DNA from: Ignavibacterium sp.
Lineage (GTDB): Bacteria; Zixibacteria; MSB-5A5; GN15; PGXB01
Reading direction: 5' to 3'
NCBI GenBank assembly: GCA_020724775.1
Contig: DYGG01000013.1
Span: forward strand, 1 to 63,614
Length of the DNA stretch: 63,614 bases
Shown here: in pieces, positions 39,518-63,614 of the stretch
Layout: each line of letters starts with the position of its first letter
How positions within the stretch are numbered: position 1 is the stretch's first letter
Translations under genes and position numbers: made by a program
Notes under the pieces: model-generated
What the model saw: only the letters and a program-made list of their open reading frames with translations
The model's database searches: none
What the model was told of the DNA's origin: nothing

Positions 39518-39535
39518 TTGTGAAATATTTCACAA
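39518..39535. promoter_or_regulatory. Perfect Rex (or CRP)-type operator
   Basis: TTGTGAAATATTTCACAA is an 18-base perfect palindrome. It fits the Rex consensus TTGTGAA-N4-TTCACAA exactly, and also the CRP core TGTGA-N6-TCACA. It lies about 290 bases before the hydrogenase operon. Rex represses hydrogen and fermentation genes when NADH is low, so the context favours Rex. Confidence 0.65.
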
Positions 39536-39826: not shown

Positions 39827-40456
39827 ATGCCTGTTTGGCGAGGATGGGATAAAATTAAATATCAGGCGCAACTGGACCCGGCATTCGCCGAGGAAGTCAC
39901 TTCGATTCCCGGAGGCGAGAAACTCTTTGACTGCATCCAGTGCGGCACCTGCAGCGGACTCTGTCCGCTCAGCCCGTACATGGATTTCACGCCGCGGAAA
40001 ATCATCGCTATGATTCGCGCCGGATTCAAAGGAGAGGTCTTAAGCAGCCACACCTGCTGGCTCTGCGCTTCTTGCTACGCCTGTACGGTGGAGTGCCCCA
40101 AAGGTGTTAAAATCACCGAGATCATGTATGCCACCAAGCGGCTGGCAATTCGCGAAGGAGTCTCACCGAAGAGATTTGCCATTCCCGTGCTGGCAGAGGA
40201 GTTTTTCCGTGATGTGGAATCTAATGGTCGCAACAGTGAAGGACGGCTGATTATGAAACTATATTTAAAGACAAATCCTTTCAAGGCGCTTAAACAGGCG
40301 ACCCTTGGTTTACGACTATGGTCACAGGGGCGGCTCGGTATCAGGTCCGACAGCATAAAGAGAAAAAGTGAACTGAAGACACTTCTCAAGAGCCTTGAAA
40401 AAGAGCGCATGGTCCGCTCGCGCCGGGAGACCGCTCACGCCGGGGAGGCAAAATGA
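39827..40456 (+). CDS. hdrC: HdrC-like iron-sulfur subunit of heterodisulfide reductase complex
   Basis: 209 residues. Two [4Fe-4S] sites are bound by CIQCGTCSGLCP and CWLCASCYACTVECP, separated by about 40 residues as in HdrC. The C-terminal 90 residues are basic and helical. GGAGGAGG stands six bases before the ATG. It passes electrons between HdrA and HdrB. It is the first of nine genes that overlap or nearly touch, all on the plus strand; its stop overlaps the next start by four bases. Confidence 0.94.
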   Translation: MPVWRGWDKIKYQAQLDPAFAEEVTSIPGGEKLFDCIQCGTCSGLCPLSPYMDFTPRKIIAMIRAGFKGEVLSSHTCWLCASCYACTVECPKGVKITEIMYATKRLAIREGVSPKRFAIPVLAEEFFRDVESNGRNSEGRLIMKLYLKTNPFKALKQATLGLRLWSQGRLGIRSDSIKRKSELKTLLKSLEKERMVRSRRETAHAGEAK

Positions 40457-41361
40457 ATTATCTATATTTCCCCGGCTGTTCCCTCAAAGGAACCGGGCGC
40501 GCCTATGAGGATTCCATTCTTTCCGTATTTAAAGGGCTCCAACTCCCGCTGGAAGAACTGGATGACTGGAATTGCTGCGGCGCGACTTCCTATATGGCAA
40601 TCAGTGAAATGAAAGCCTTCGCGCTGTCGGCGCGAAATCTTGCTCTGGCGGAAAAACAGGCTCATTCCCGTGAGAATTTCGGGCTGGTCACTCCCTGTGC
40701 CGCATGCTATCTTGTGCTGGTCAAAACGCAGAAATATCTTCAGGAATTCCCCGATATCGGCGACAAAATCAAAACCGCTCTGAAATCGGCAAATCTTGAA
40801 TACGGCGGAAAAGTACGTGTCCGGCATCCCCTCGATGTCTTAGCCAACGACTTTGGCACCGAGAAACTCGCCTCCTTTGTCAAAAAACCGCTAAAGGGCC
40901 TCAAGGTTGCCTGCTACTACGGCTGCCAGATTGTCAGACCATATGCTGAATTTGATGACCAGCATAATCCGACCACCATGAATCGTATCATGCATGCGCT
41001 CGGCGCGCGGACTATCGACTGGGCACTTAAGACTCGTTGCTGTGGCGGTTCACTTACCGGAACCATACAAGAAGTCGGCATGCGGCTCAGTTATATTCTT
41101 CTGCGTGAGGCTTCACGGCTGGGCGCCGATGTCGTCGCAACCGCCTGTCCTCTCTGTCAGTTCAATCTGGAATGTTACCAGAAGCAGATGAGTCGTGAAT
41201 TTGAAGATGCCATCAGCATTCCGGTGGTCTATTTTTCGCAACTGGTCGGCTTCGCCATGGGACTTCCGGCAAAGGAACTTGGCATGCAGAGGCTGTTTGT
41301 GCCGTTCAAATTCAATCCCGCGGCAGAATCGGTGAAAGGAGGCATCCATGTCCACTCCTGA
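40453..41361 (+). CDS. hdrB: HdrB-like catalytic subunit (two CCG domains)
   Basis: 302 residues. Both cysteine-rich CCG motifs are complete: YFPGCSL, WNCCGA and TPCAACYLV, then YYGCQ, RCCGGS and ACPLCQ. In methanogens these bind the non-cubane iron-sulfur clusters that split the CoM-CoB disulfide. In bacteria the disulfide is unknown, so the acceptor here is open. The end overlaps hdrA by 14 bases. Confidence 0.94.
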   Translation: MNYLYFPGCSLKGTGRAYEDSILSVFKGLQLPLEELDDWNCCGATSYMAISEMKAFALSARNLALAEKQAHSRENFGLVTPCAACYLVLVKTQKYLQEFPDIGDKIKTALKSANLEYGGKVRVRHPLDVLANDFGTEKLASFVKKPLKGLKVACYYGCQIVRPYAEFDDQHNPTTMNRIMHALGARTIDWALKTRCCGGSLTGTIQEVGMRLSYILLREASRLGADVVATACPLCQFNLECYQKQMSREFEDAISIPVVYFSQLVGFAMGLPAKELGMQRLFVPFKFNPAAESVKGGIHVHS

Positions 41362-43351
41362 AAACAAAACTAATGGTACTCCCAGAATCGGCGTTTATGT
41401 CTGCCACTGTGGAATTAACATTGCCGCCAAAGTCAATGTCGCGGAGTGCGTGGAATTCGCTCGAAGTCTTCCCTATGTCACGGTGGCGCGGGAGTATAAA
41501 TTTATCTGCTCCGATCCGGGACAGGAACTGATTCAGCAGGACATTCGTGACGGCAAGATTGACCGGGTGGTGGTGGCATCCTGCTCCCCTTTAATGCATG
41601 AAGCGACCTTCCGCAAGGCGACTCTTGCCGGCGGACAGAACCCCTTCTTTTTTCAGATGGCAAATATCCGGGAGCATGTCTCCTGGGTGACCTTCGATAA
41701 AGAGATGGCGACCCTCAAAGCCAAAGCGCTGATAGCCGGCGCCGTAATGAGAGTTGCCCGGCACAAACCGCTGGAAAAAACCAGAGTGCCGGTCAATCCT
41801 GATGTCCTGATTGTCGGAGGCGGTATCGCCGGAATTCATGCCGCCCTGACCATCGCCGACTCCGGCAAGAAAGTCTATCTGGTCGAAAAGGAACCGACCA
41901 TCGGCGGACATATGGCCAAGTTCGATAAAACTTTCCCCACTCTGGACTGCGCCGCCTGCATTCTGACACCGAAAATGTCGGCGGTTCGCTCCCATCCCAA
42001 TATCATTCTCTGGAGTTACTCCGAAGTCAGCCAGGTGGATGGATATGTCGGCAACTTCAAAGTCAAAGTCCGGCGAAAACCGCGCTATGTCGATGAAGAA
42101 CTTTGTGTCGGTTGTTACGAGTGCATCGAGAAATGCATTTTCAAGAAAGCCAAATTCGAAGATGAATTCAATATCGGGCTCAGCCAGCGCAAGCCGATAT
42201 ATATCCCCTTTCCGCAAGCAACTCCTCTGGTGGCATTGATTGACCCGGAAACCTGCACGGAGTTCCGAACCGGCAAATGCAAGAAGACCTGTGTCGATGC
42301 CTGCGAGCGGAAAGCGATTGACTTCCAGCAGAAGGAGGAAATCAAAGAAATCGATGTCGGCGCCATAATTCTGGCGACCGGATTCAAGATTTTCGATGCC
42401 ACAAGAATCCCTCGATACGGCTACGGCAAATATCCCAACGTATTTACCAGTCTCGAAATCGAGAGGCTGGTCAACGCCTCCGGCCCCACCGGCGGCGAAG
42501 TTAGATTGAAGGATGGTGGGAAGCCCAACTCGGTAGGGATTATTCATTGTGTCGGCAGCCGCGATATCAATACCAATCGTTACTGCTCCCGTCTCTGCTG
42601 CATGGCATCGCTTAAACTGGCGCACCTGATAAAGGAGCGAACCGGCGCCGAGGTATATAATTTTTACATCGATATCCGCGCTGCCGGAAAAGGGTACGAA
42701 GAGTTTTACGATAAACTTCTCAAAGAAGGGGTGCATTTCATACGCGGCCGGGTGGCAGAAGTCAGCGATTGGACCATGACCGCCGACGAAGAAGGAAAAC
42801 TGGTTATCCGCGCTGAGGACACTCTTATAGGAGTCGTTCGAAGAATACCGGTTGATATGGTGGTACTGGCGGTTGGCTTGGAACCGTCAGCCGATGCCGA
42901 CAATATCCGCCGAATGTTCAATATCAGTTGCAGTTATGAAGGCTGGTTTTTGGAGCGACATCCGAAACTGGCGCCGGTATCTACTTTTACCGATGGCATT
43001 TCGCTTGCCGGGGCATGTCAGGGTCCCAAAGATATCCCCGACAGCGTGGCACAGGCGGGAGCGGCTGCCGCCGAAGCGCTGGCGCTAATCGATAAAGGCT
43101 TTGTGGAACTGGAGCCGAACACTGCCTTTGTGCAGGATGAGTTCTGCTCCGGCTGCTGCACTTGTGTCGCCCTCTGTCCGTACAGCGCAATCAGTTTCAG
43201 CGCCGATAATAATCGCGCTTCCGTCAATGGCGCCCTCTGCAAAGGATGTGGCACCTGTGTTGCCGCCTGCCCCTCGGGCGCCCTTCAGCAGAATCTCTTT
43301 ACTGATGAACAGATATTCGAGGAAATCAGGGGAGTAATGAACTATGTCTGA
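41348..43351 (+). CDS. hdrA: HdrA-like FAD-binding electron-bifurcating subunit
   Basis: 667 residues. The N-terminal motif VYVCHCGINIA, the FAD fold GGGIAGIHAAL, the insertion TLDCAACILTP, a ferredoxin site CVGCYECIEKC, another Cys-rich stretch (CKKTCVDACERKAI) and two C-terminal clusters (CSGCCTCVALCP, CKGCGTCVAACP) are all visible. HdrA is the site of flavin-based electron bifurcation. Electrons from hydrogen, delivered by MvhAGD, split between ferredoxin and HdrBC. It overlaps MvhD by eight bases. Confidence 0.95.
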   Translation: MSTPENKTNGTPRIGVYVCHCGINIAAKVNVAECVEFARSLPYVTVAREYKFICSDPGQELIQQDIRDGKIDRVVVASCSPLMHEATFRKATLAGGQNPFFFQMANIREHVSWVTFDKEMATLKAKALIAGAVMRVARHKPLEKTRVPVNPDVLIVGGGIAGIHAALTIADSGKKVYLVEKEPTIGGHMAKFDKTFPTLDCAACILTPKMSAVRSHPNIILWSYSEVSQVDGYVGNFKVKVRRKPRYVDEELCVGCYECIEKCIFKKAKFEDEFNIGLSQRKPIYIPFPQATPLVALIDPETCTEFRTGKCKKTCVDACERKAIDFQQKEEIKEIDVGAIILATGFKIFDATRIPRYGYGKYPNVFTSLEIERLVNASGPTGGEVRLKDGGKPNSVGIIHCVGSRDINTNRYCSRLCCMASLKLAHLIKERTGAEVYNFYIDIRAAGKGYEEFYDKLLKEGVHFIRGRVAEVSDWTMTADEEGKLVIRAEDTLIGVVRRIPVDMVVLAVGLEPSADADNIRRMFNISCSYEGWFLERHPKLAPVSTFTDGISLAGACQGPKDIPDSVAQAGAAAAEALALIDKGFVELEPNTAFVQDEFCSGCCTCVALCPYSAISFSADNNRASVNGALCKGCGTCVAACPSGALQQNLFTDEQIFEEIRGVMNYV

Positions 43352-43844
43352 TATAAATAAATCTGATAACGGTAATTTCGAGCCGCGCATTGTCGCCTTT
43401 TTCTGTAACTGGTGCACTTATACCGCGGCTGATTTAGCCGGTACGGCGCGGATGACTTATGCCCCCAACGCCCGAGTGGTACGGGTTATGTGCTCCGGTC
43501 GGCTGGACCCGCAGTTTATACTGATGGCACTGCGGGAGGGAGCCGACGGTGTTCTCATTGGCGGATGCCATCCCGGCGACTGCCATTACCAGGAAGGAAA
43601 TTACAAAACTCTTCGACGCTTCACCCTTCTCAAAAGGCTGTTACTGGATATGGGCATTGAGGATAAACGGGTGCGGATGGAATGGATTGCCGCCTCGGAA
43701 GGTGACCGGGTCCAGAGAGTAATGAATGAAATGACCGAGCAGTTGAAAAAACTGGGACCTTTACATCTGGAACCGGTATCAATTGATACCATCCACAAGA
43801 AAGTTGAAGAATCGGTGGCGCAGGCCGAGGGGGTGAAAATATGA
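43344..43844 (+). CDS. mvhD: MvhD-type hydrogenase iron-sulfur (delta) subunit
   Basis: 166 residues. FFCNWCTYTAADLAG, RVMCSGRLDP and GGCHPGDCHY supply the cysteines of the [2Fe-2S] cluster in this family. It bridges the MvhAG hydrogenase to HdrA. Four-base overlap with the next gene. Confidence 0.94.
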   Translation: MSDINKSDNGNFEPRIVAFFCNWCTYTAADLAGTARMTYAPNARVVRVMCSGRLDPQFILMALREGADGVLIGGCHPGDCHYQEGNYKTLRRFTLLKRLLLDMGIEDKRVRMEWIAASEGDRVQRVMNEMTEQLKKLGPLHLEPVSIDTIHKKVEESVAQAEGVKI

Positions 43845-44821
43845 GCAAGCCGAAAGTGGGGTTTTACTGGTGTGCTGCCTGCGGCGGTTGCGAGGAAGCC
43901 GTGGTGGACCTCCATGAAGAAATTCTGAATGTCGTCGCCGCCGTCGATATTCTCTTCTGGCCCGTGGCTTTGGATTTCAAACGGGAAGATGTTGAAAAAC
44001 TTCATGAGCGCGAACTGGCGGTTTCTTTCATTAACGGCGCCATTCGCTCGTCAGAGCAGTTTGAAATGGTCGAACTGCTGAGAAAGAAATCGGGATTGCT
44101 TATTGCCTTCGGGAGTTGCTCTCATCTCGGCGGAATTCCAGGACTGGCTAATCTCTTTAATAGAGAATCAATTCTTGCAAATTCGTATAAGGAAGCCTTC
44201 AGCGTCGAAAATCCGCAGGGATTTTATCCGCAGGAGTCAATTCAGGTTCCCGAAGGTAAGGTAACTCTTCCCGCTCTTTGGAACACGGTCAAAACGCTTG
44301 ACCAGGTAATTGACGTTGACTATTACCTTCCCGGCTGCCCACCGCCGGTAGAACTGATAAAAGAAGCGCTCGGGGCAATACTGGCAGGAAAACTTCCGGA
44401 GAAAGGAGCGGTCCTGGCGCCCGACAAGGCGCTCTGTGAGGTTTGCCCCCGCAAAGAATCGAAACCGGAAAAACCGCAACTGCGGGAATTTAAACGTCCG
44501 CACGAGATAGTAATCGATACCGAAAAATGCCTTCTGGCGCAGGGGCTGCTCTGTCTCGGAAGCGCCACCCGTTCTGGATGCGGCTCGGCCTGCGTCAACG
44601 GCAATATGCCCTGCACCGGCTGCATGGGACCAACCAGCCGGGTACTCGATTATGGCGCCAAAGCGCTCTCGGCGATTGCCTCACTGGTCGGCTCCAATGA
44701 CGAAAAGGAGATTGCCGCTATCTTAAGCAAAATTGCCGACCCGACCGGGACTTTCTACCGCTATTCGCTACCAGCGTCACTTCTCCACCGCGCTTATAAA
44801 CCGGAACAGGGAGGTAAATGA
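43841..44821 (+). CDS. mvhG: [NiFe]-hydrogenase small subunit (MvhG type)
   Basis: 326 residues, no Tat signal, so cytoplasmic. Proximal cluster ligands are in CAACGGCEE, GSCSHLGG and GCPPP. The C-terminal third carries further cysteine clusters (CEVCPR, CLLAQGLLCLGSATRSGCGSAC split over about 30 residues, CTGCMG). It wires the nickel site of the large subunit to MvhD. Four-base ATGA overlap with the large-subunit gene. Confidence 0.93.
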   Translation: MSKPKVGFYWCAACGGCEEAVVDLHEEILNVVAAVDILFWPVALDFKREDVEKLHERELAVSFINGAIRSSEQFEMVELLRKKSGLLIAFGSCSHLGGIPGLANLFNRESILANSYKEAFSVENPQGFYPQESIQVPEGKVTLPALWNTVKTLDQVIDVDYYLPGCPPPVELIKEALGAILAGKLPEKGAVLAPDKALCEVCPRKESKPEKPQLREFKRPHEIVIDTEKCLLAQGLLCLGSATRSGCGSACVNGNMPCTGCMGPTSRVLDYGAKALSAIASLVGSNDEKEIAAILSKIADPTGTFYRYSLPASLLHRAYKPEQGGK

Positions 44822-46296
44822 ATATGAAAAGAGAAATTCTGATAGACCCTATCACTCGACTGGAAGGACACGGCAAGATTGACATTTTCCTGAACGAAAA
44901 TGGGGATGTTGACCGCGCCTATCTGCAGATTCCAGAACTGCGCGGTTTTGAGAAGTTTGCCGAAGGACGTCCGGCCGAAGATATGCCGCAAATTACCTCG
45001 CGCATCAGTGGTGTCTGCCCGACCGCCCATCATATGGCGGCTACCCGCGCCCTAGACGACCTGTACAAGGTCGAACCGCCCGATTCGGCTAAGAAAATAA
45101 GAGAACTGATATATTCTTTATTCTTTGTCGAAGACCACGCCCTGCATTTCTTTTTCCTGGGGGGACCTGACTTCATTGTGGGACCGACCGCGCCAAAAGG
45201 GGAACGGAATATCCTGGGCGTTCTGGGAAAGGTTGGTATGGAGATTGGAAAAGAAGTTATCGGCGTGCGTAAAGAACTTCGCGAGTTGATATCTCTTGCC
45301 GGCGGCAAAGTTATTCACCCCGTTTTTGGCTTGCCCGGAGGCGTCGCCCGCCCGCTCAAGAAAGAAGAGCAGACAAAATTTATCGCCGGCGCCGAGCATG
45401 CTGTCAAGTTCGCCCAGTTTTCTCTCGGGATATTTAATGACGTTGTTTTGAAAAACAAGCAATATGTTGACTGGATACTCTCGGATACATATACCCACAA
45501 AACTTATTATATGGGATTGGTTGATGAGAACAACCGGGTCAACTTTTATGATGGCAAAATCCGCGTCGTTGCCCCGGAGGGCAAAGAATTCCTGAAATTT
45601 AAGCCGCAGGAATATCTCGAACATATCGCCGAGCACGTGGAACCCTGGAGTTACATAAAGTTCTGCTACCTGAAGGATATCGGATGGAAGGGATTTGAAG
45701 AAGGCGCTGACAGCGGTATTTATGCCGTTGCGCCGCTGGCGCGACTGAATGCATCCGACGGTATGGCGACCCCGCTGGCGCAGGAGGCTTATGAGCAGTA
45801 CTTTACAACTCTCGGAGGCAAACCGGTGCATCACACGCTTGCCAATCATTGGGCGCGGTTGATTGAACTCCTATATGCCGCCGAAAGAAGTCTTCAACTG
45901 GCAAAAGATCCGGAAATTGTCAATCCCAATGTGCGCACTATTCCTACAGAGATACCAACTGAGGGTATCGGTGTGGTCGAGGCGCCGCGTGGCACCCTTT
46001 TCCATCATTATCAAACCGACGAGAAAGGGATAGTAAAGAAGGCGAACCTGATTGTTGCCACCCAGAATAATGCGGCGCGAATGGCGATGTCGGTTGATAA
46101 AGCCGCGAAAGGACTGATAAAAGAGGGGCAAGTCGATGATGGTCTGCTGAATATGGTCGAAATGGGTTTCCGCGCTTATGACCCCTGTCACGGTTGCGCC
46201 ACACACTGCCTGCCGGGACAGACACCCCTCTGGGTGCGGCTCTTTGACGCCGAACATAGACTAATTCAGGAGATAAAACATAACGGTGGACTGTGA
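44818..46296 (+). CDS. mvhA: [NiFe]-hydrogenase large subunit (MvhA type) with Cys-to-Ser change in the L1 motif
   Basis: 492 residues, cytoplasmic catalytic subunit. The RLEGHGKI start and the C-terminal L2 motif DPCHGCATH (Cys457, Cys460, His463) are normal. The 29 residues after His463 would be removed by the endopeptidase encoded next, showing the protein is built for metal-centre maturation. The L1 motif is [11 protein letters not shown], where the family has R-x-C-G-x-C. Codon AGT at 45007-45009 gives Ser64 in place of the first terminal nickel ligand, while Cys67 (bridging) is kept. The protein is otherwise complete and in frame with its neighbours. Whether it oxidises hydrogen normally cannot be said. 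Confidence 0.93.
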
Positions 46297-46760
46297 AAGT
46301 ACTTGTGTTAGGGCTGGGAAATGAGTTACTTTCCGACGATGCCGTCGGAATTCTAACTGTCCGACGGCTCAGTGAGGAGTTGAAGGGCCAGGCTGATTTT
46401 GCCGAGAGCGCGGTTTGCGGCCTGGCTCTCCTCGATTACTTTATCGGCTATGATAAGGCAATTATTATAGACGCCATCAAAACTAGTCAGAATCCTCCCG
46501 GAACCGTGATGAGCCTTGATGCCGAGCATATCCCGCCCGTGGCCGCCCCCTCCCCTCACTACGCCGGTCTGCCGGAACTGCTGGCTATCTCCATGGAACT
46601 TAAAATCGATTTTCCCCAGGAGATAAGAATATTTGCCCTCGAAGTTAATGACCTGCACACCATTGGAGGCGCAATCACCCCGGCGGTGGTCAACGGAATG
46701 GGAGAACTTGTGAAAGTGGTCGCCCGTCAGTTGCGGGAGTGGAATATGGCTTATGCATGA
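46293..46760 (+). CDS. Hydrogenase maturation endopeptidase
   Basis: 155 residues, HybD/HycI family. GLGNELLSDDAVG, IIIDAIK and APSPHYAGL supply the nickel-binding and conserved residues. It trims the C-terminal peptide of the large subunit after nickel insertion. The GTG start overlaps the mvhA stop, and its own stop overlaps hypA by eight bases. Confidence 0.93.
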   Translation: MKVLVLGLGNELLSDDAVGILTVRRLSEELKGQADFAESAVCGLALLDYFIGYDKAIIIDAIKTSQNPPGTVMSLDAEHIPPVAAPSPHYAGLPELLAISMELKIDFPQEIRIFALEVNDLHTIGGAITPAVVNGMGELVKVVARQLREWNMAYA

Positions 46761-47094
46761 ACTCCGTATTGCCGAGAGCATTGTGCAGTCTGTCCTGGAG
46801 GAGATGGCTCGACAAAATCTACATTCGATTAAGACAATTGGCCTTCGAATTGGCGCTCTTTCCGGTGTCAATATCGATTCACTCCGGTTTGGATTTGAAT
46901 CGATTGTTCCCGAGACGGCTCTGGCTCACGCCAGGCTCCAAGTCGAAGAGGTAGCGGTGCAGGGGGAATGCCGCCACTGCGGCAAAAATTTCGAGGTCAA
47001 TGAATTTATATTTGTCTGCCCGCACTGTTTTTCTACCGATATGGCCATAAAAACGGGGCAGGAGCTAGACCTCGTGTACATTGAAGCGGAATGA
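46753..47094 (+). CDS. hypA: Hydrogenase nickel chaperone HypA
   Basis: 113 residues. The N-terminal MHELRIAESIV has the nickel-binding His2, and two CxxC pairs (CRHCGK and CPHC) form the zinc site. With HypB it loads nickel into the large subunit. Confidence 0.95.
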   Translation: MHELRIAESIVQSVLEEMARQNLHSIKTIGLRIGALSGVNIDSLRFGFESIVPETALAHARLQVEEVAVQGECRHCGKNFEVNEFIFVCPHCFSTDMAIKTGQELDLVYIEAE

Positions 47095-47117
47095 CTTTCA
47101 AATAGTGAAGACCCAAT

Positions 47118-47777
<660 letters not shown>

Positions 47778-55813: not shown

Positions 55814-56899
55814 TTACAGAGTAACCTGAACGTGGCACTGTCCGCAGACAGCCTTGTAATTGGTGCCATCGCCATTCTCGCCATAGTTGGCCGCTCCGGT
55901 CGCCCAGATCAAACCAAAAGCGCGAGTGTTACCATGCGCCTTATGGCAGGACATACAGGACGGAGTCAAATCGGTCGGAGTGGATGCTCCCATAGCGGTT
56001 CCCCAGGTTCCCCAGTTGCCGGTCGGAGACATAACCTGTACCCGATAGGCGCGAGCGCCAAAAGCGCGGCTGATGCTGGAATGTCCACCACCCTGAGCGC
56101 CGATATTGGCATCTGCGGTGGGGTGACGATACCATTCCTGACCGGCGGTGCCGGCAGTATTGCGCATGTTGGCGTCAGATGACGAACCGTGGAAATTGGT
56201 ATGACACTGCTTGCAGAATGTGCCATAAGCGGAAGCGGTCGGATTCGGCTCGTTGAAATCAACGTTTCGAATATCGTAGTGGTCGCCGCCATAACTCGCC
56301 GAACGCTCGAATACGTCTCTACCCAGGTCATTGGTTCCTACTGCGTAAGAGACACCAGCGGTATTGGTGCCGGTAATATTAAAGGCAAGATTGCGATAAG
56401 CGCTGGTAGAAACTCCACCTGTAGGCGCCGGATTGCCACGACCATGCTGCGTATGACAGTTGATACAGTTGAGACCATCCGGATTTGACCAGGTCCCGCC
56501 GGGGGCATCGTCGGTGCTTCCCAGAGTATGACCGGTAGCGTCAAAATACGGCGCAACATTGTCGCGGTTCAGGGCGCCTGCCTGACGACCGTTTGTCGGA
56601 AGAGCTCCGCCGTTCTCAGCGAGAACATCGGGAGCAAACGACTGGTTATCATGGCAGGTAAGGCAGAGGTCATTAATATGATTTCTCAACAGGTAGTGAT
56701 AAGGACCATCAGTGCCCATATCAACCGTAATGCCGGTACCGTTGGCATTGTAGCCGTGGGTCTGGCTATAGTGCATGACATGGCATTCCTGACAGGCGAG
56801 AGTCGTTCCCGTGTGATAGTCACCGGCAACGGCGCTGCTTATCATCAATGCCACCAAAGCAGTTAAGAGATAAATCACCTTCCTCATTCTGTTTTCCAT
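55814..56899 (-). CDS. OmcS-like hexahaem cytochrome c, candidate filament (nanowire) subunit
   Basis: 361 residues from the ATG at 56899, preceded by AAGGAGGTG, a nearly perfect ribosome-binding site. A signal peptide ends SSAVAG. Six CxxCH motifs occur in order: CQECH, CLTCH, CINCH, CKQCH, CMSCH, CGQCH. Their spacing and extra histidines (CQECHVMHYSQ, GHTLG before motif 3, CHTQHG, CHTNFHGSS, RHPT, CHKAHG) follow the plan of Geobacter OmcS, whose distal histidines ligate neighbouring haems and, across the subunit interface, build a conducting filament. No lipobox or membrane anchor is present. It has its own promoter, leader and terminator and sits behind the cytochrome/barrel operon. Confidence 0.88.
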   Translation of the reverse strand: MENRMRKVIYLLTALVALMISSAVAGDYHTGTTLACQECHVMHYSQTHGYNANGTGITVDMGTDGPYHYLLRNHINDLCLTCHDNQSFAPDVLAENGGALPTNGRQAGALNRDNVAPYFDATGHTLGSTDDAPGGTWSNPDGLNCINCHTQHGRGNPAPTGGVSTSAYRNLAFNITGTNTAGVSYAVGTNDLGRDVFERSASYGGDHYDIRNVDFNEPNPTASAYGTFCKQCHTNFHGSSSDANMRNTAGTAGQEWYRHPTADANIGAQGGGHSSISRAFGARAYRVQVMSPTGNWGTWGTAMGASTPTDLTPSCMSCHKAHGNTRAFGLIWATGAANYGENGDGTNYKAVCGQCHVQVTL

Positions 56900-57062
56900 T
56901 TCACCTCCTTTCACTTTGAAATTCTTCATTCTGAAATTTTCCAGTCTCATAAATCCTCCCTTCACGATACAAGATTGAATCGACATTTCTTATCTTAATT
57001 GCGAATCCTTAAACTCTTCTGTTGCCGCATTTGCCCACTCTCAGTCTATTCCCAGGCATAAG

Positions 57063-57116
57063 AATGAGACCGTTATATGTTGTTCTGAAGCGGATGTTGT
57101 CGGCAACGGTCTCATT
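57063..57116 (-). promoter_or_regulatory. 12-bp inverted repeat in the cytochrome leader
   Basis: AATGAGACCGTT (57063-57074) and AACGGTCTCATT (57105-57116) are perfectly complementary, with 30 bases between. In the leader RNA this would be a long-loop hairpin; in DNA it could be an operator. Confidence 0.6.
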
Positions 57117-57190: not shown

Positions 57191-57208
57191 TTGTGAAAAG
57201 AATAACAA
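57191..57208. promoter_or_regulatory. Rex-like site overlapping the cytochrome -10 box
   Basis: On the minus strand TTGTTATTCTTTTCACAA matches the Rex pattern TTGTKAA-N4-TTMACAA at 13 of 14 defined positions. It covers the -10 hexamer, the usual position for repression. Confidence 0.5.
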
Positions 57209-57227: not shown

Positions 57228-57317
57228 GCACAAAATTGGACAAATTTAATAATATTTGCGCCCCTGCTGAAACAGTTGTGGTTTATGATTACTTTAATGT
57301 AATGATTTGTCTTTGAA

Positions 57318-58292
57318 TCACTTAAGTAAAAATCGTTGGATCCTGTTTCCGACCTTCTCGGAAACGAAAAAGTGCCCGTCCCCTGTAAATGCAATACCGG
57401 CCGGATACTGATACTCCCCAAGTTTGTATCCAAATCCCCCCACTTGAACCAGCATATCTCCATCGGAATTATAGACTTTAATCACCTGACGTAGAGCGTC
57501 AGTAACCCAGATTAGGGTGCCATCAATAGAATCTTCTGAAACCGCGATTCCGGAGGGAAGAGATAAGTCCGGCTCCTCGATATCATGCCCGGCAAACCCG
57601 GAAATATAGTTACCGGAAGTGTCGAATATCTTAACGGCTGGAACAGAATAGAGGTCGGTCAGATACAATAGCCCTTCGCTCTCGGTAACGGCAAGGATTG
57701 TATTCAGTTCGGAAGGAAGAGGTCCCTTTTTGCCGATTACCCGAATCAATTTAAGGTTCTTATCCAGCATCAAGACCGCGGTCATTTTGCCGGTTACGCC
57801 GAGATAGAGGTTGTCGGCGGCATCAATTGCCAGGCATTCCGGTCGTGCTTTGATGGCGCTATCTCCCAGAATCTGCCCCACCGTGAATTTTTCCAGCGGT
57901 GTCCCCCGGAAATCGAGGACTTCCAGGTATTCGACCAGGTTATCGATGACAATAATCTCGCCGAGGCTGTTGACCGCCACCGCCTTCGGTTCCCCTTTGA
58001 CAATCATTCCAGTATAGCGGTCACGGACGAAATGGTCAAAGGAAAAAAGCGGTTTCAGATTCCGGTCGTAAATAATGATCCGATTATTGCCGGCATCGGC
58101 AACAGTCAGTTCGCCCGAGCGTCTGTCAAAAAAAATGGAGCGAGGGCTTCGCAAAGCAATCCCCATCCCATCATCAAAGGTAATGGCATCAAAGGTAATG
58201 CGTGAGGGGATATCACTTGCTACCGACAGATCAGGAATTATCAAAAGAAGAACGAGAAACAAGAACAGATATTGAAATCGAGATGTGCGCAT
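57318..58292 (-). CDS. Exported NHL-repeat beta-propeller protein
   Basis: 324 residues from the ATG at 58292, with AGGCGG upstream; a TTG five codons earlier overlaps the previous stop. A signal peptide ends LSVAS. NHL-type blades include RSPRSIFFDRRSGELTVAD, NRIIIYD, YPAGIAFTGDGHFFVSE and GNRIQRFLLK. It should form a six-bladed propeller in the periplasm or outside. It is the last gene of the cytochrome/barrel operon, which also contains another NHL gene at its upstream end. NHL proteins are often found with filament-type and other multihaem cytochromes, perhaps guiding secretion or assembly; that role is inferred. Confidence 0.87.
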   Translation of the reverse strand: MRTSRFQYLFLFLVLLLIIPDLSVASDIPSRITFDAITFDDGMGIALRSPRSIFFDRRSGELTVADAGNNRIIIYDRNLKPLFSFDHFVRDRYTGMIVKGEPKAVAVNSLGEIIVIDNLVEYLEVLDFRGTPLEKFTVGQILGDSAIKARPECLAIDAADNLYLGVTGKMTAVLMLDKNLKLIRVIGKKGPLPSELNTILAVTESEGLLYLTDLYSVPAVKIFDTSGNYISGFAGHDIEEPDLSLPSGIAVSEDSIDGTLIWVTDALRQVIKVYNSDGDMLVQVGGFGYKLGEYQYPAGIAFTGDGHFFVSEKVGNRIQRFLLK

Positions 58293-58299
58293 TTCCCGC

Positions 58300-58896
58300 C
58301 TACTCAAAAAGCGCTGTCAGGTCCCGTACCGCGTCTTCGACCATCTGACGGGCAAGCGCCTCCGAGGACTTTATCGCCCCGATGCCAAACGCCACTTCAC
58401 CTCGGTCGCCGCGCCCATTGTTGGTCGCCACCCAAACGGTCTTCTTGCTTCGGCAGTCAATCAACCGACAATTGAAAGAAACCTGCGGAACACGTCCCAG
58501 GTAACTGTTGTCATACTCTTCAAACTCCAGTACCGACCCGGTCAGGACAAAATCGAGATTCAAACGAGAGGCGAGAGTATCGACCTGCGCCTCGGTGATT
58601 TGCATTGATGAGCGGACCCGAAACTGGCGCAAAAGGTCATAAGTCTCGCCGTATTCAACTGTTTCAAATCTCTCATTTCCTTTCATGATTGTCTGGAAAT
58701 AATCGGTTATCTTTTCCGCCGCTTTATCCTTGCCGCTCAGATTTTCAAACGGTATTACCGCCACGCGCGATGCCGATGAAAACTTTTCTTCAATCCTCTT
58801 TCTGGCAGCCATCTGGGTAGCGCATCCCCCGGTCGCCAGCAGAAAAACCGCCGCCAGTACCAGCGAGACCGCTCCCTGCTTCAAACTCCGGTTCAT
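58300..58896 (-). CDS. CsgG/GNA1162-like lipoprotein B
   Basis: 198 residues. A lipoprotein signal with lipobox ATGGC is followed by ASRVAVIPFENLSGKDKAAEKITDYF, the opening strand-helix of CsgG/GNA1162-type proteins, then LNLDFVLTGSVLEF and NCRLIDCRSKKTVW. CsgG relatives form outer-membrane secretion channels, while GNA1162-like ones are periplasmic ring or assembly factors. This protein lacks the barrel-forming hairpins of true CsgG. The start overlaps the previous stop by four bases, so it is translated with the related lipoprotein upstream. Confidence 0.85.
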   Translation of the reverse strand: MNRSLKQGAVSLVLAAVFLLATGGCATQMAARKRIEEKFSSASRVAVIPFENLSGKDKAAEKITDYFQTIMKGNERFETVEYGETYDLLRQFRVRSSMQITEAQVDTLASRLNLDFVLTGSVLEFEEYDNSYLGRVPQVSFNCRLIDCRSKKTVWVATNNGRGDRGEVAFGIGAIKSSEALARQMVEDAVRDLTALFE

Positions 58897-59480
58897 TTCC
58901 GACTCCTGGCAAATGCCTTAACCGCCTCGCGGCAGACCTTAGCTGTCATCTCACCGAGGGTATGAGTTTCGCCGAAAGAGAAGACCGGAAATTTCGGGCC
59001 TCCCTTCTGTGTCTGCTCATAACTCCAGACCACTTTTCCGGTCTGACAGTCGATAAAGCGGACAATAATTGAAACCAGGGGAAATTCGGTCTGCCCGGAG
59101 CGAACCATGCCGTAATCCTTCACGGCACCGACGAAAATCCCCTCCACCTTTGCCTCCCGCCCGATAGCAATGGCGTCCTCACTCGAGAACGATTCCGGCA
59201 GATTGAGCGGCATCTCTTTTACAACTGCCCGTGTCGCTTTCGCGAAGTCACCGGCGTTGGCAACTTCAATCTCCTTTAGAAAAAGAAGTTCCGTCCGGAA
59301 ACTGGAGGTCACCTTCTCCCCGGCGTTGTTATCACTGCTTAGATTCGAAAAAGTCATGAGACCGACGCGGCTGTAGAAACCGAAATCAGCCTCTTCATTG
59401 ACATAGACCCGATTCCCGCCGCAGGACGATAGCAAGAGTAATAGGATGAAACTCGGCAGGAGCAAGATTGAGATTTTCAT
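58893..59480 (-). CDS. CsgG/GNA1162-like lipoprotein A
   Basis: 195 residues. Lipobox LLSSC. Same fold as its downstream neighbour: SRVGLMTFSNLSSDNNAGEKVTSSF, AKVEGIFVGAVKDYG, VRFIDCQTGKVVWSYE. The two are diverged duplicates and might form a hetero-oligomer at the outer membrane. It is 16 bases after the barrel gene. Confidence 0.85.
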   Translation of the reverse strand: MKISILLLPSFILLLLLSSCGGNRVYVNEEADFGFYSRVGLMTFSNLSSDNNAGEKVTSSFRTELLFLKEIEVANAGDFAKATRAVVKEMPLNLPESFSSEDAIAIGREAKVEGIFVGAVKDYGMVRSGQTEFPLVSIIVRFIDCQTGKVVWSYEQTQKGGPKFPVFSFGETHTLGEMTAKVCREAVKAFARSRK

Positions 59481-59496
59481 ATAATTTAACCTGTTT

Positions 59497-61218
59497 CTAT
59501 ATTTTTATATTCAAATTCATTTGAAGCGACCTGTTGATTGCTCTTCCCTCTACCGGGTACTCTGTCCGGCTGTATAGATATCCGGTAATCAGGGTTATCT
59601 GGCGGCTCAGGTAAGTCACCAGTTCGAGATTGAGGGTTCTGGGACGGGTTACCTTCTCTACCGGCGGCAGACCGAAAGCGGCGGATTCTTCCCTTGCCTG
59701 CTTCTGGCTATTGAAGGCAAAATAGAGGCTGAATGACCGGCGGAAACTGTAACTCATATATCCATTCCAGGCGCCGCTGCTGTTTCGAGTGCCGACATTA
59801 AACTCACTGTAAATGTAGGTGAGATTGAAGTTCAGGTTGGAACGAGGATTATAGGAAAGACCGAGATTGAAATTCTGAGAATAACTTCGTCCCAGTCGGA
59901 ATTCCGCCCCCTGGTATAGCGATGTAAATCCCACCCGTCCTTCCATTTTGCGGTTTATGGTCAGTCGCGTATCGATAGAGCCGTTACTCTGATACCGGGA
60001 GACGTTATCAATCGGGTCGCTGTTATGCATCACCGAGAAATCGACATAGGTGCGCATGTAATAGTACGGTTTGAAACTGAACGAGACAAAATAGTTGTCG
60101 AGAGCGTATTGGCTTTTATCAAGAACGGCAATAACATTGCCGGCGGTGTCGCTCACGGTAACAAGCCTATCAGACTGCTGGTAGACGGTGCGATTGAAAC
60201 TGAAGCGACTATCGACACCGCTTCGAAAATATCGACTCAGCCCGACCCCATATGAAATATACTCGACAATCCGGTTGCCGCGGCTTTCGTCGCTAATCTG
60301 GTAACTCTTGGTCACTTGAAGATTGAGATAGCCGGTTGGCGCCAGCCCAGCCTGCGCCGAAAAATTCTGATTTCCGGCGTCGAGTTCGCCGGCTCGATCC
60401 AGCACCTCGACAAATCGTCCCGAATATGCGGCGCTCACGCTCAACTTTCTAATTTCAAAACTGTTGAACAATGCTGTTGTCGAGTGTGTCCGGGAGCGCT
60501 GGCTGCGGACATCATCAACGAGGCGGTCAGTTTGATAGTAATTGTATGTGGCGGAGAAATTCCCGACCCTCCCCAGCATTTCGGTAACACCGGCTGAACC
60601 GGCGTATGTCCGGGTCACGGTCTCTTTGCCGCCCGGAAGGAAACTTGATTGTGTCAGATTGTTATAGTTGGCGCGAAGCGACACCACTCCCCTTTGGTAA
60701 ATCGATTCCGCCACAAAATTGCGGCTGCGGCCGTCATATCTTCTGGTCACTTCCTTGTCATAATTGGTCGTCTGATTATAGATTAGGCCGAGCGACGGGT
60801 AATCCGGATAATTGATATGCAACCCGCCTCGCCAATTACGATAATAGAGATAAAATGGCTTGTCCCCGGCGGGAGTGGTGGTCAACCTGCGATAAGGGGA
60901 ATAACTTAAATTGAGAAGATAACCGTAACTTTTAAGGTCAAAATAGAATATCGGGCGGAACTGGTGATAATCTGAATATGAAAATTCCTGCCGGTCAAGA
61001 TTTGCCGCCAGACGAATCCAATTCTTGACAAAAAGGTCATCCTCATAGTTGAGAAGAAAACTCTCACGAGTCAAGTCGTCCTTACGGTCAATCTGGTTTG
61101 ATTCGCTGATATGCTGATAATAAAACGCAATATTACCGTAAAGACGCCCCGATTCGGCTTCCCCGACGGCAGACAAGAAAATCAGTGAAATCAAACCAAC
61201 AGCCCGCAGGCAGTTCAT
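59497..61218 (-). CDS. Outer-membrane beta-barrel of the cytochrome locus
   Basis: 573 residues. Signal peptide (FLSAVGEAES) and then alternating strands rich in Tyr, Phe and Arg across the whole length (YGNIAFYYQHISES, RNFVAESIYQRGVVSLRANYNN, YYMRTYVDFSVMHNS, FNLNLTYIYSEF-like), about 24-28 strands. This size is close to the MtrB/PioB-type porins that hold cytochromes through the outer membrane, though the MtrB N-terminal CxxC is not seen. The start shares one base (TGATG) with the stop of the upstream cytochrome gene, so the two proteins are made together and probably act together. Confidence 0.83.
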   Translation of the reverse strand: MNCLRAVGLISLIFLSAVGEAESGRLYGNIAFYYQHISESNQIDRKDDLTRESFLLNYEDDLFVKNWIRLAANLDRQEFSYSDYHQFRPIFYFDLKSYGYLLNLSYSPYRRLTTTPAGDKPFYLYYRNWRGGLHINYPDYPSLGLIYNQTTNYDKEVTRRYDGRSRNFVAESIYQRGVVSLRANYNNLTQSSFLPGGKETVTRTYAGSAGVTEMLGRVGNFSATYNYYQTDRLVDDVRSQRSRTHSTTALFNSFEIRKLSVSAAYSGRFVEVLDRAGELDAGNQNFSAQAGLAPTGYLNLQVTKSYQISDESRGNRIVEYISYGVGLSRYFRSGVDSRFSFNRTVYQQSDRLVTVSDTAGNVIAVLDKSQYALDNYFVSFSFKPYYYMRTYVDFSVMHNSDPIDNVSRYQSNGSIDTRLTINRKMEGRVGFTSLYQGAEFRLGRSYSQNFNLGLSYNPRSNLNFNLTYIYSEFNVGTRNSSGAWNGYMSYSFRRSFSLYFAFNSQKQAREESAAFGLPPVEKVTRPRTLNLELVTYLSRQITLITGYLYSRTEYPVEGRAINRSLQMNLNIKI

Positions 61219-62321
61219 CAGTCCTCACCCTCCGACGGATTATGCACATTATTGGCACTGGGTCCTGAATAGTCCCGCCCGTGGCAGTCATAACAATGGC
61301 GTGCGCCGTTGAAGGAGTGGTCGGGAATCTCGCTTGGCAACGGCCGTGGGTTAATTCCTTCCACCGTGCCTCCCCCCTGTCGATCACTGGACGGATGGCA
61401 ACCAAAACAGAATCGTCGCACCTGGATGTTATCTTCTTTGATATTGGTCAAGCCGTACCATCCGGGACGCTGGTCGCTGAGAAGATAATCGTTACTTCCC
61501 TGACCGTTGTAACCTTCCGAGCCATGCGGGTTGTGGCAATCATAACAAGGGAGCCGAGCGCCGGACGGAACAAAGGACCCGCCGTGCGATAACCCGTGCC
61601 CGGTCCTTGTGCCGGGATTGACGGAACGGTCATAGTAGTCGGCGATATAACGGGAGGATTCATCCATTCCAACGGGTCCGTTGACACTATGACAGGTGAA
61701 GCAGAGCAGATAGTTATCGGTAGTAAAGCCGGTCTGAGACCCGACAATTCCCGAGTAAGTTGTATCGAGCATGTCATGCAGAGCGCTCCCGCCATGCACA
61801 TCGTGACAATTGTCGCAGGAGCCGAAACCGAGGGCATCTTTTAGCGGCATATCGGGGTCGCTGTAATGAGAGGAGAAAGCGGTGTTTTCCCAGATAATCT
61901 GCCCCGGCCAGCGCACCAGATTATGCGGCCCGGGCACTCTTACGCCGCCGCTGTTAAATTCAAAGTAACCGGGGTCACTGGAGCCAAGCGGCATCCGGTC
62001 CGATTCCTGTGCCGGATAACCGGAGGTCGCTCCGGCCGGTCGATCGGCGTGACATCCCCCCATGGACTGTGAAAAACAGAGTCGATTCGAATTCTCCTGA
62101 AAGAGGCCAAAGGGATATGCATTGCCGCCGTCATGTCCCTTATGGCACTGGGCGCAACTTCCTCTCGGATAGTCGCTGCTTCGCAGCACTCCAGTCATCG
62201 AGGAGCCATGCGGTGACTGGCTGTACCGGCCGTCAGCGACAGCAGAGGTCCAAACTCCGCTCAGAGCAACGACAACCACCGTAAATTTCGTCAAACTTCT
62301 CATATTGATACAAGACTTCAC
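61218..62321 (-). CDS. Multihaem cytochrome c with six CxxCH and one CX7CH motif
   Basis: 367 residues. Signal peptide ends TSAVA. Haem motifs in order: CAQCH, CFSQSMGGCH (about residues 80-89, CX7CH), CDNCH, CFTCH, CYDCH, CFGCH, CYDCH. If all are used it holds seven haems. The seven-residue gap in the second motif replaces the CLSCH/CLTCH found at the same place in the two hexahaem relatives. The C-terminal region is acidic and glycine-rich and has no anchor. It lies between a hexahaem gene and the outer-membrane barrel gene with four- and one-base overlaps. It may be the periplasmic or barrel-inserted link of the electron conduit. Confidence 0.88.
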   Translation of the reverse strand: MKSCINMRSLTKFTVVVVALSGVWTSAVADGRYSQSPHGSSMTGVLRSSDYPRGSCAQCHKGHDGGNAYPFGLFQENSNRLCFSQSMGGCHADRPAGATSGYPAQESDRMPLGSSDPGYFEFNSGGVRVPGPHNLVRWPGQIIWENTAFSSHYSDPDMPLKDALGFGSCDNCHDVHGGSALHDMLDTTYSGIVGSQTGFTTDNYLLCFTCHSVNGPVGMDESSRYIADYYDRSVNPGTRTGHGLSHGGSFVPSGARLPCYDCHNPHGSEGYNGQGSNDYLLSDQRPGWYGLTNIKEDNIQVRRFCFGCHPSSDRQGGGTVEGINPRPLPSEIPDHSFNGARHCYDCHGRDYSGPSANNVHNPSEGED

Positions 62322-63274
62322 TTATTATGACATTGCTGGCATCCGGAATTGAAACTGGCGCCTCCTTCTTTGAAAGGCCAGAGAAATGATGAAGCGTAAT
62401 TCCCGCCGTGAGCCTTATGGCAACTCCCGCAGAATACTCGGTCTCCAGAGGAAGGAAGCAGCGATGCCGCAAATCCGGTCGCCAGGGGCGATTCAAACGG
62501 CACGCGGCGGATGCCGCCGGCTGTAAGGTCGAAGCCGTCACCGGTACCTGTAATCCAGTGCTGTGGGTCAGCATGCTGGTCTCCAACAAACTGATTCATG
62601 GCGACCCGGTCAGGATGTCCGTTGAAATGTGCCGGAGGCACCGAACTTTCGTTTATTCTCAATATGTCGTGGCAACCGACACACCATTCCGATAAGCCGG
62701 AACGGTACCCAATATTACCGCGCTCATAGGCGGCGATAGAACCGGCCACTGTGGGGGGGATGTCCGGCAGACGTCCGGTCAGCACTTCTTTCCCCTCTTC
62801 AATTATCAGCGAATCGCCCACCCCACCGGGGTCATGAAGCAGATTCCGGTAGTTGCTGTTCCCATGAACGGCGTGACAACTGGCGCAGGTCAGGCTGTTC
62901 GATTTAGCCGCAGATTGAAGCGGCGTGAGCATAGTGATTCCAAGAGTATGATTATGCGAATCATACAATCCCCCATCCCGGAAAAAACCGGCGGCGCTTT
63001 CGCCTGAGAGGGTGCCGCTATACATCTCTACCGGGTGCGAAACATCCGGCGCAGTCGGGTCGGAGCCATCGTGACAGGAGAGACAGAGCTCATTGACCGA
63101 ACTTTTTACCAAGAGATAGGAATACGGCCCACCGGGAAGTTCCACCCCTTCTTCGGTAGAATGCTGCAGATGGCAGTCATTGCAGTGCGAGGTGGCGCCG
63201 ATATGCCAGTTCCCGGCGTAAGCAGAATCGCCAGCGATGAAAAGAAAGACAGAAATCAATAAAGAATGCCGCAC
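62318..63274 (-). CDS. OmcS/OmcE-like hexahaem cytochrome c, second candidate filament protein
   Basis: 318 residues from the GTG at 63274 with GAGG five bases ahead. Signal peptide SLLISVFLFIAGDSAYA. Six motifs: CNDCH, CLSCH, CASCH, CVGCH, CGSCH, CQQCH, with HNHTLG, CHAVHGN, NGHPDR and CHKAHGGN in the same places as in the 55814-56899 protein. It is thus a paralogue of that protein and shares its resemblance to OmcS. No lipobox. The start is just past the stop of the NHL gene upstream, and its stop overlaps the next cytochrome start by four bases. Confidence 0.88.
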   Translation of the reverse strand: MRHSLLISVFLFIAGDSAYAGNWHIGATSHCNDCHLQHSTEEGVELPGGPYSYLLVKSSVNELCLSCHDGSDPTAPDVSHPVEMYSGTLSGESAAGFFRDGGLYDSHNHTLGITMLTPLQSAAKSNSLTCASCHAVHGNSNYRNLLHDPGGVGDSLIIEEGKEVLTGRLPDIPPTVAGSIAAYERGNIGYRSGLSEWCVGCHDILRINESSVPPAHFNGHPDRVAMNQFVGDQHADPQHWITGTGDGFDLTAGGIRRVPFESPLATGFAASLLPSSGDRVFCGSCHKAHGGNYASSFLWPFKEGGASFNSGCQQCHNK

Positions 63275-63281
63275 GAGCACC

Positions 63282-63614
63282 TCAGTTCTCCCATTCGGTG
63301 GTAAGGAGTCCGCGAAATTCATCGATTATATATATTTGGCCACTAAATGTTATCGTCATGGCAGTGACACTGGATGGAGCATATCCCAGCGGCAAGAGTT
63401 TAATCTCTCGACCACTCTGGTCATATAGCCGAAGTTGCGAATTGGTGCGGTCAGCGACAATTATTCGTTCCATCCGGTCAACCGTCACCGCCGTCGCCTC
63501 CCACCCTCTCTCCACGCCCGGCTTGTCCCATCCGCCATAAAATAAGAACTGTCCGTTGCCGTTAAAAGCCTGAAGTGGATAATTTTTAAGGTCGGTGACA
63601 AAAAGTTTGCCTGA
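63282..63614 (-). CDS. NHL-repeat protein, 5' part beyond the window
   Basis: The frame is open from the window edge to the stop at 63282 (about 110 residues seen). Blades such as GKLFVTDLKNYPLQAF, RIIVADRTNSQLRLYD and GQIYIIDEFRG are NHL type. It is the first visible gene of the cytochrome/barrel operon. Confidence 0.85.
   Translation of the reverse strand, partial: SGKLFVTDLKNYPLQAFNGNGQFLFYGGWDKPGVERGWEATAVTVDRMERIIVADRTNSQLRLYDQSGREIKLLPLGYAPSSVTAMTITFSGQIYIIDEFRGLLTTEWEN

Follow-up and report, generated by a model that had tools for sequence, protein, structure and literature searches.

How bacteria control the building of extracellular electron conduits is poorly known beyond a few cultured models. 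The closest precedent for the control described here comes from Calderihabitans maritimus KKC1, a CO-grown Firmicute in which Rex-like motifs of the form TTGTGA-N6-TCACAA lie before hydrogenase clusters and before three CO-induced genes for extracellular multihaem cytochromes, and for which control by NADH was proposed, with high NADH inducing those genes (PMC7306483). The same text restates what is established for the family, that Rex leaves DNA when NADH rises (PMC7306483). The principle of Rex acting on cytochromes and hydrogenases is therefore already known as a proposal.

The locus that we describe shares such motifs before both kinds of genes, but it belongs to another phylum, the Zixibacteria; moreover, the part of the Calderihabitans report used here concerns a single genome with no cross-genus test, and describes no OmcS-type or 42-haem cluster (PMC7306483). 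With bacterial Rex operators generally, our locus has in common the regulator family, the palindrome, autoregulation, and respiratory and fermentative targets, and it differs from them in that an operator is merged with a -10 box, stands at a cytochrome cluster, and is found in uncultured Zixibacteria. A further point of comparison is OmcS of Geobacter sulfurreducens (structures 6ef8 and 6nef), with which the cytochrome studied here shares six haems, although the Zixibacteria gene shares its cluster with genes for a barrel-like protein and for a 42-haem cytochrome.

Results

In the sequence-only reading of the window, by which we mean the whole 63,614-nucleotide stretch of DNA analysed here, an 18-bp site before a cytochrome gene was said to fit TTGTKAA-N4-TTMACAA at 13 of 14 positions and to lie over a TTGACA-N17-TATTCT promoter. 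Both descriptions proved exact: there is a single mismatch, the spacer is 17 bp, and the -10 box falls entirely inside the site (Table 1), a placement from which a Rex operator would be able to block transcription. The left half of the operator at this promoter, P2, reads TTGTTAT rather than TTGTTAA (TTGTTAY in the operator-promoter composite generally), and we attribute this extra mismatch to one half-site also serving as the -10 box.

Table 1. Features of the locus, with positions numbered along the window
Feature	Position	Strand	Basis or remark
Rex-like operator TTGTTATTCTTTTCACAA (P2)	57191..57208	-	1 mismatch to TTGTKAA-N4-TTMACAA; matrix score; orthologs
-35 box TTGACA of P2	57222..57227	-	
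-10 box TATTCT of P2, wholly within the operator	57199..57204	-	
OmcS-type hexahaem c-type cytochrome with signal peptide	55814..56899	-	6 CXXCH; orthologs; OmcS profile match
NHL-repeat protein, final gene of the upstream operon	57318..58307	-	
Two small proteins (198 and 195 aa) with lipoprotein-like signal sequences	58300..59480	-	lipoprotein call by eye
573-aa protein, presumed outer-membrane barrel	59497..61218	-	conserved place in cluster; barrel inferred from sequence character
Two hexahaem cytochromes	61218..63322	-	cluster continues on contig C71 with 42-haem cytochrome and P1
Perfect Rex site TTGTGAAATATTTCACAA before the Hdr/Mvh hydrogenase operon	39518..39535	+	0 mismatches
HdrCBA-MvhDGA-type operon (Fer4, CCG, FAD/Fer4, FlpD, Oxidored_q6, NiFe hydrogenase, HycI, HypA, HypB)	39827..47777	+	

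Within two mismatches of TTGTKAA-N4-TTMACAA, the window holds only this site and the one at 39518-39535, which had been claimed as perfect and is so. Since 0.51 such matches are expected by chance, and 9 of 100 shuffles reach two, the count in the window alone is not decisive. By itself, the site at 57191 is weak (p of about 0.015, or 1.5%, by dinucleotide shuffles of the 500 bp upstream), and the case is built on comparison.

Between this genome (G000) and G001, almost no substitutions have accumulated in the block that starts above the -35 box and stops shortly below the operator, while the flanks diverge, and the part of the operator beyond the -10 box, TTTTCACAA, is identical. A block of about 37 bp upstream of the -35 box (57228-57264; GGGGCGCAAATATTATTAAATTTGTCCAATTTTGTGC) is also identical in the two genomes, its flank having diverged; it is perhaps a UP element or an activator site.

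The genome (3.07 Mb in 87 contigs) does contain the rex gene on which the sequence-only reading depended. It encodes one protein with a Rex DNA-binding domain, in a 225-codon frame at C74:8687, and this protein matches the NCBIfam Rex family at E 1.8e-78 and solved Rex structures in the PDB at E 8.7e-50. The gene is closely preceded by its own operator, TTGTGAATCAATTCACAT. Of 79 genomes in the order, 73 carry the domain, and TTGTGAA-N4-TTCACA(T/A) stands upstream in 30 of the 31 rex loci examined, at a near-constant distance and with variable central bases. These upstream sites therefore fix the motif independently of the finding at 57191.

We scored the window with position matrices from three training sets (rex-gene sites only; rex and hydrogenase sites of other genomes; this genome's other sites), each built without the P2 promoter, and all three ranked the site at 39518 first and that at 57191 second. 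The concern that equal scores might turn up at random places was not borne out: the 57191 site outscores the reversed controls, with no equal score in either the reversed window or 138 kb of loci from the same genome that were likewise reversed. Whole-genome pattern searches allowing as many as two mismatches returned 42 palindromes, versus 1 in the reversed control, and the genes behind many of them are redox genes, among them nuoA (twice), citrate synthase, sat (ATP sulfurylase), hemA (glutamyl-tRNA reductase), dehydrogenases, and other cytochromes.

Several of these sites deserve mention in their own right. The two nuoA-led operons are separate, and each has a Rex-like site (L011:1501, L030:894), while an identical 18-mer, TTGTTACTTTTTTCACAA or its complement, recurs at three loci: that of an FAD oxidase/CCG gene, that of an unassigned 374-aa gene, and P1 of the cytochrome cluster (L018:2990, L021:3422, and L034:2968, respectively). 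The site TTGTGAGATTTTTCACAA lies 68 bp before the glutamyl-tRNA reductase gene (L008:1501-1518) and would tie haem supply to the same sensor. Sites within coding regions (e.g., L009, L015, L019, L020, L032, L037, and L038) were taken as chance matches.

Translation of the gene behind P2 most likely begins at the ATG after AAAGGAGGTGA, at 56899, although the longest open reading frame begins at 56986; the leader would therefore be about 290 nt. The product contains six CXXCH motifs by count and a signal peptide as judged by eye. A profile built from 12 sequences, both orthologs and relatives, found a single significant solved structure, OmcS, at E 5.3e-8, with collinear N-terminal and middle stretches, whereas a single-sequence phmmer search against the PDB gave no cytochrome match; we call the protein a distant relative of OmcS for this reason. 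The earlier label of nanowire cytochrome thus holds only in the sense of this distant homology, and an AlphaFold2 model of the protein (pLDDT 35) was of too low confidence for use. The leader as a whole does not fold unusually (z -0.33) and matches no Rfam family. Within it, at 57063-57116, is a perfect 12-bp inverted repeat, AATGAGACCGTT-N30-AACGGTCTCATT, which is likewise without an Rfam match and present once in the genome; its arms are conserved in G001, and its loop has diverged.

The gene belongs to a cluster whose order is a 153-aa protein, a 42-haem cytochrome (about 1067 aa, with 42 CXXCH motifs), a 318-aa protein, two hexahaem cytochromes, a barrel-like protein (about 574 aa), two lipoprotein-like proteins, an NHL protein, and then the OmcS-type gene. 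In this genome the cluster is divided over contigs C71 and C37, the ends of which map 76 bp apart on G001. The OmcS-type gene closes the conserved cluster in G001, G023, G025, G030, and G032, and also in G044, for which gene calls are less complete; some genomes have one more cytochrome after it. The window's own copy of the barrel-like protein has no match in Pfam or NCBIfam. The 42-haem protein is similar to decahaem cytochromes of the DmsE type and also matches 6r2q chain A, which we take to be MtrA (the entry carries another protein's label). Proteins of about 1030 to 1077 aa with the same DmsE-type character and exactly 42 CXXCH motifs form a conserved family found in clusters of Zixibacteria, Latescibacterota, and Eisenbacteria (loci L167 [G000:C71:29500-34592], L090, L091, L093, L096, L097, L098, L103, L110, and L111).

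At P1, the promoter of the cluster that begins with the 153-aa protein gene, all ten testable genomes have TTGACA, 16 or 17 bp, and a TANNTT -10 box inside TTGTTAN-N4-TTCACAA, with the one exception within the composite of TAGTTAC in G044. Nine of these sites are at two mismatches or fewer, and one has three. When nine P1 sequences are aligned with P2 of the window, GTTA and TTCACAA are invariant, and because TTCACAA is situated past the -10 box, its invariance calls for more than promoter function. The P2 composite of this genus matches P1 nearly letter for letter, and P2 may have been remodelled in this genus after the pattern of P1.

Upstream of the OmcS-type gene itself, 9 of 10 orthologs within the order have a Rex-like site at two mismatches or fewer, with a perfect one in G018 and none at P2 of G033. 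In most other genera the site does not coincide with the promoter: in seven other genomes the P2 site is 85-155 bp further downstream than the -10 box, and these sites therefore do not qualify as positional homologs of the one at 57191. Judging from these comparisons, control at P2 appears to be conserved, but the place of the site has shifted. We also compared ten genomes from other orders of the same class: only G088 combines a clear site with this promoter arrangement, G120 has a weaker site, and most of the others have no site, several showing coding-like upstream DNA or a promoter that lacks one. Related clusters in Latescibacterota, Eisenbacteria, and other classes contain no convincing Rex sites. 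We therefore regard the link as characteristic of this order, with traces elsewhere.

A site at two mismatches or fewer precedes 14 of 15 close orthologs of the Hdr/Mvh hydrogenase operon, at varying distances, and five distant paralogs have no Rex site upstream. In G018, the Hdr operon, together with its site, adjoins the OmcS-type gene. The earlier proposal of one redox sensor for the hydrogenase and for electron export thus gains support from a link that is conserved across genera, and it is probable that Rex binds at the promoters of the cytochrome cluster as well as at that of the hydrogenase operon, as one sensor that would control both.

The downstream sites in the seven relatives would suit a different role, in which Rex acts on the cluster as an activator or a roadblock and not as a classical promoter repressor. 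We consider this unlikely, given that the operator lies over the -10 box at P2 in this genus and at P1 everywhere, where binding should exclude polymerase.

A separate question is whether Rex is the protein that binds. The outer letters and spacing of the sites equal those of a CRP box, and for this reason we considered a regulator of the CRP/FNR family acting at TTGTGA-N6-TCACAA sites. The genome has 17 TGTGA-N6-TCACA sequences, 10 of which miss at least one of the inner A/T letters preferred by Rex, and it encodes one clear member of this family. Yet the inner AA/TT is near-invariant in the sites before rex genes, and TTGTTA half-sites suit Rex better. In CRP, an arginine in the recognition helix reads TGTGA. 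The genome's only clear HTH_Crp_2 protein, at C65:9500, does not have such a helix (R-E-x-x-x-R); its ISETLSRNL (S-E-T-L-S-R) is of the FNR type, with serine in place of that arginine. Rex is favored on account of this FNR-like helix, and we find the involvement of a CRP/FNR protein quite improbable.

Lastly, a chance overlap, in which the TTGT and CACAA of an AT-rich promoter mimic Rex half-sites, would be in keeping with the modest shuffle statistics at P2 and in the window, but we hold it to be very improbable in view of the identity of TTTTCACAA in G001, the invariance of TTCACAA in the P1 composite of all ten testable genomes, and the presence in orthologs of Rex-like sites at other places ahead of this gene.

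Discussion

From the sites, the rex gene, their conservation, and the gene cluster, we infer that 57191-57208 is a Rex operator over the -10 box of P2, through which the OmcS-type gene would be repressed until NADH relieves that repression, and that P1 and the Hdr/Mvh promoter belong to the same set. We put the probability of this reading at roughly 0.83. At a low NADH/NAD+ ratio, Rex would occupy the operator and, because the operator covers the -10 box, should exclude RNA polymerase; as NADH rises, Rex would be released and the OmcS-type hexahaem cytochrome made. Given the composites at P1 and P2 and the site before the Hdr/Mvh operon, putative electron export and the hydrogenase would form one NADH-responsive set, with high NADH opening all three promoters together.

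A broader proposal is that NADH, via Rex, induces an OmcS-type nanowire, a 42-haem outer-membrane conduit, and Hdr/Mvh as a redox overflow valve that is conserved within this uncultured order and chooses between H2 and extracellular acceptors. We would give this even odds.

Our literature searches returned no paper on Rex with nanowires or on Rex with heterodisulfide reductase. To our knowledge, the cluster of an OmcS-type with a 42-haem cytochrome, its conservation across an order, and an operator merged with a -10 box are new. For a phylum whose members are known largely from assembled genomes, the comparative evidence links one well-understood NADH sensor with a nanowire-like cytochrome, with a 42-haem cytochrome, and with a hydrogenase.
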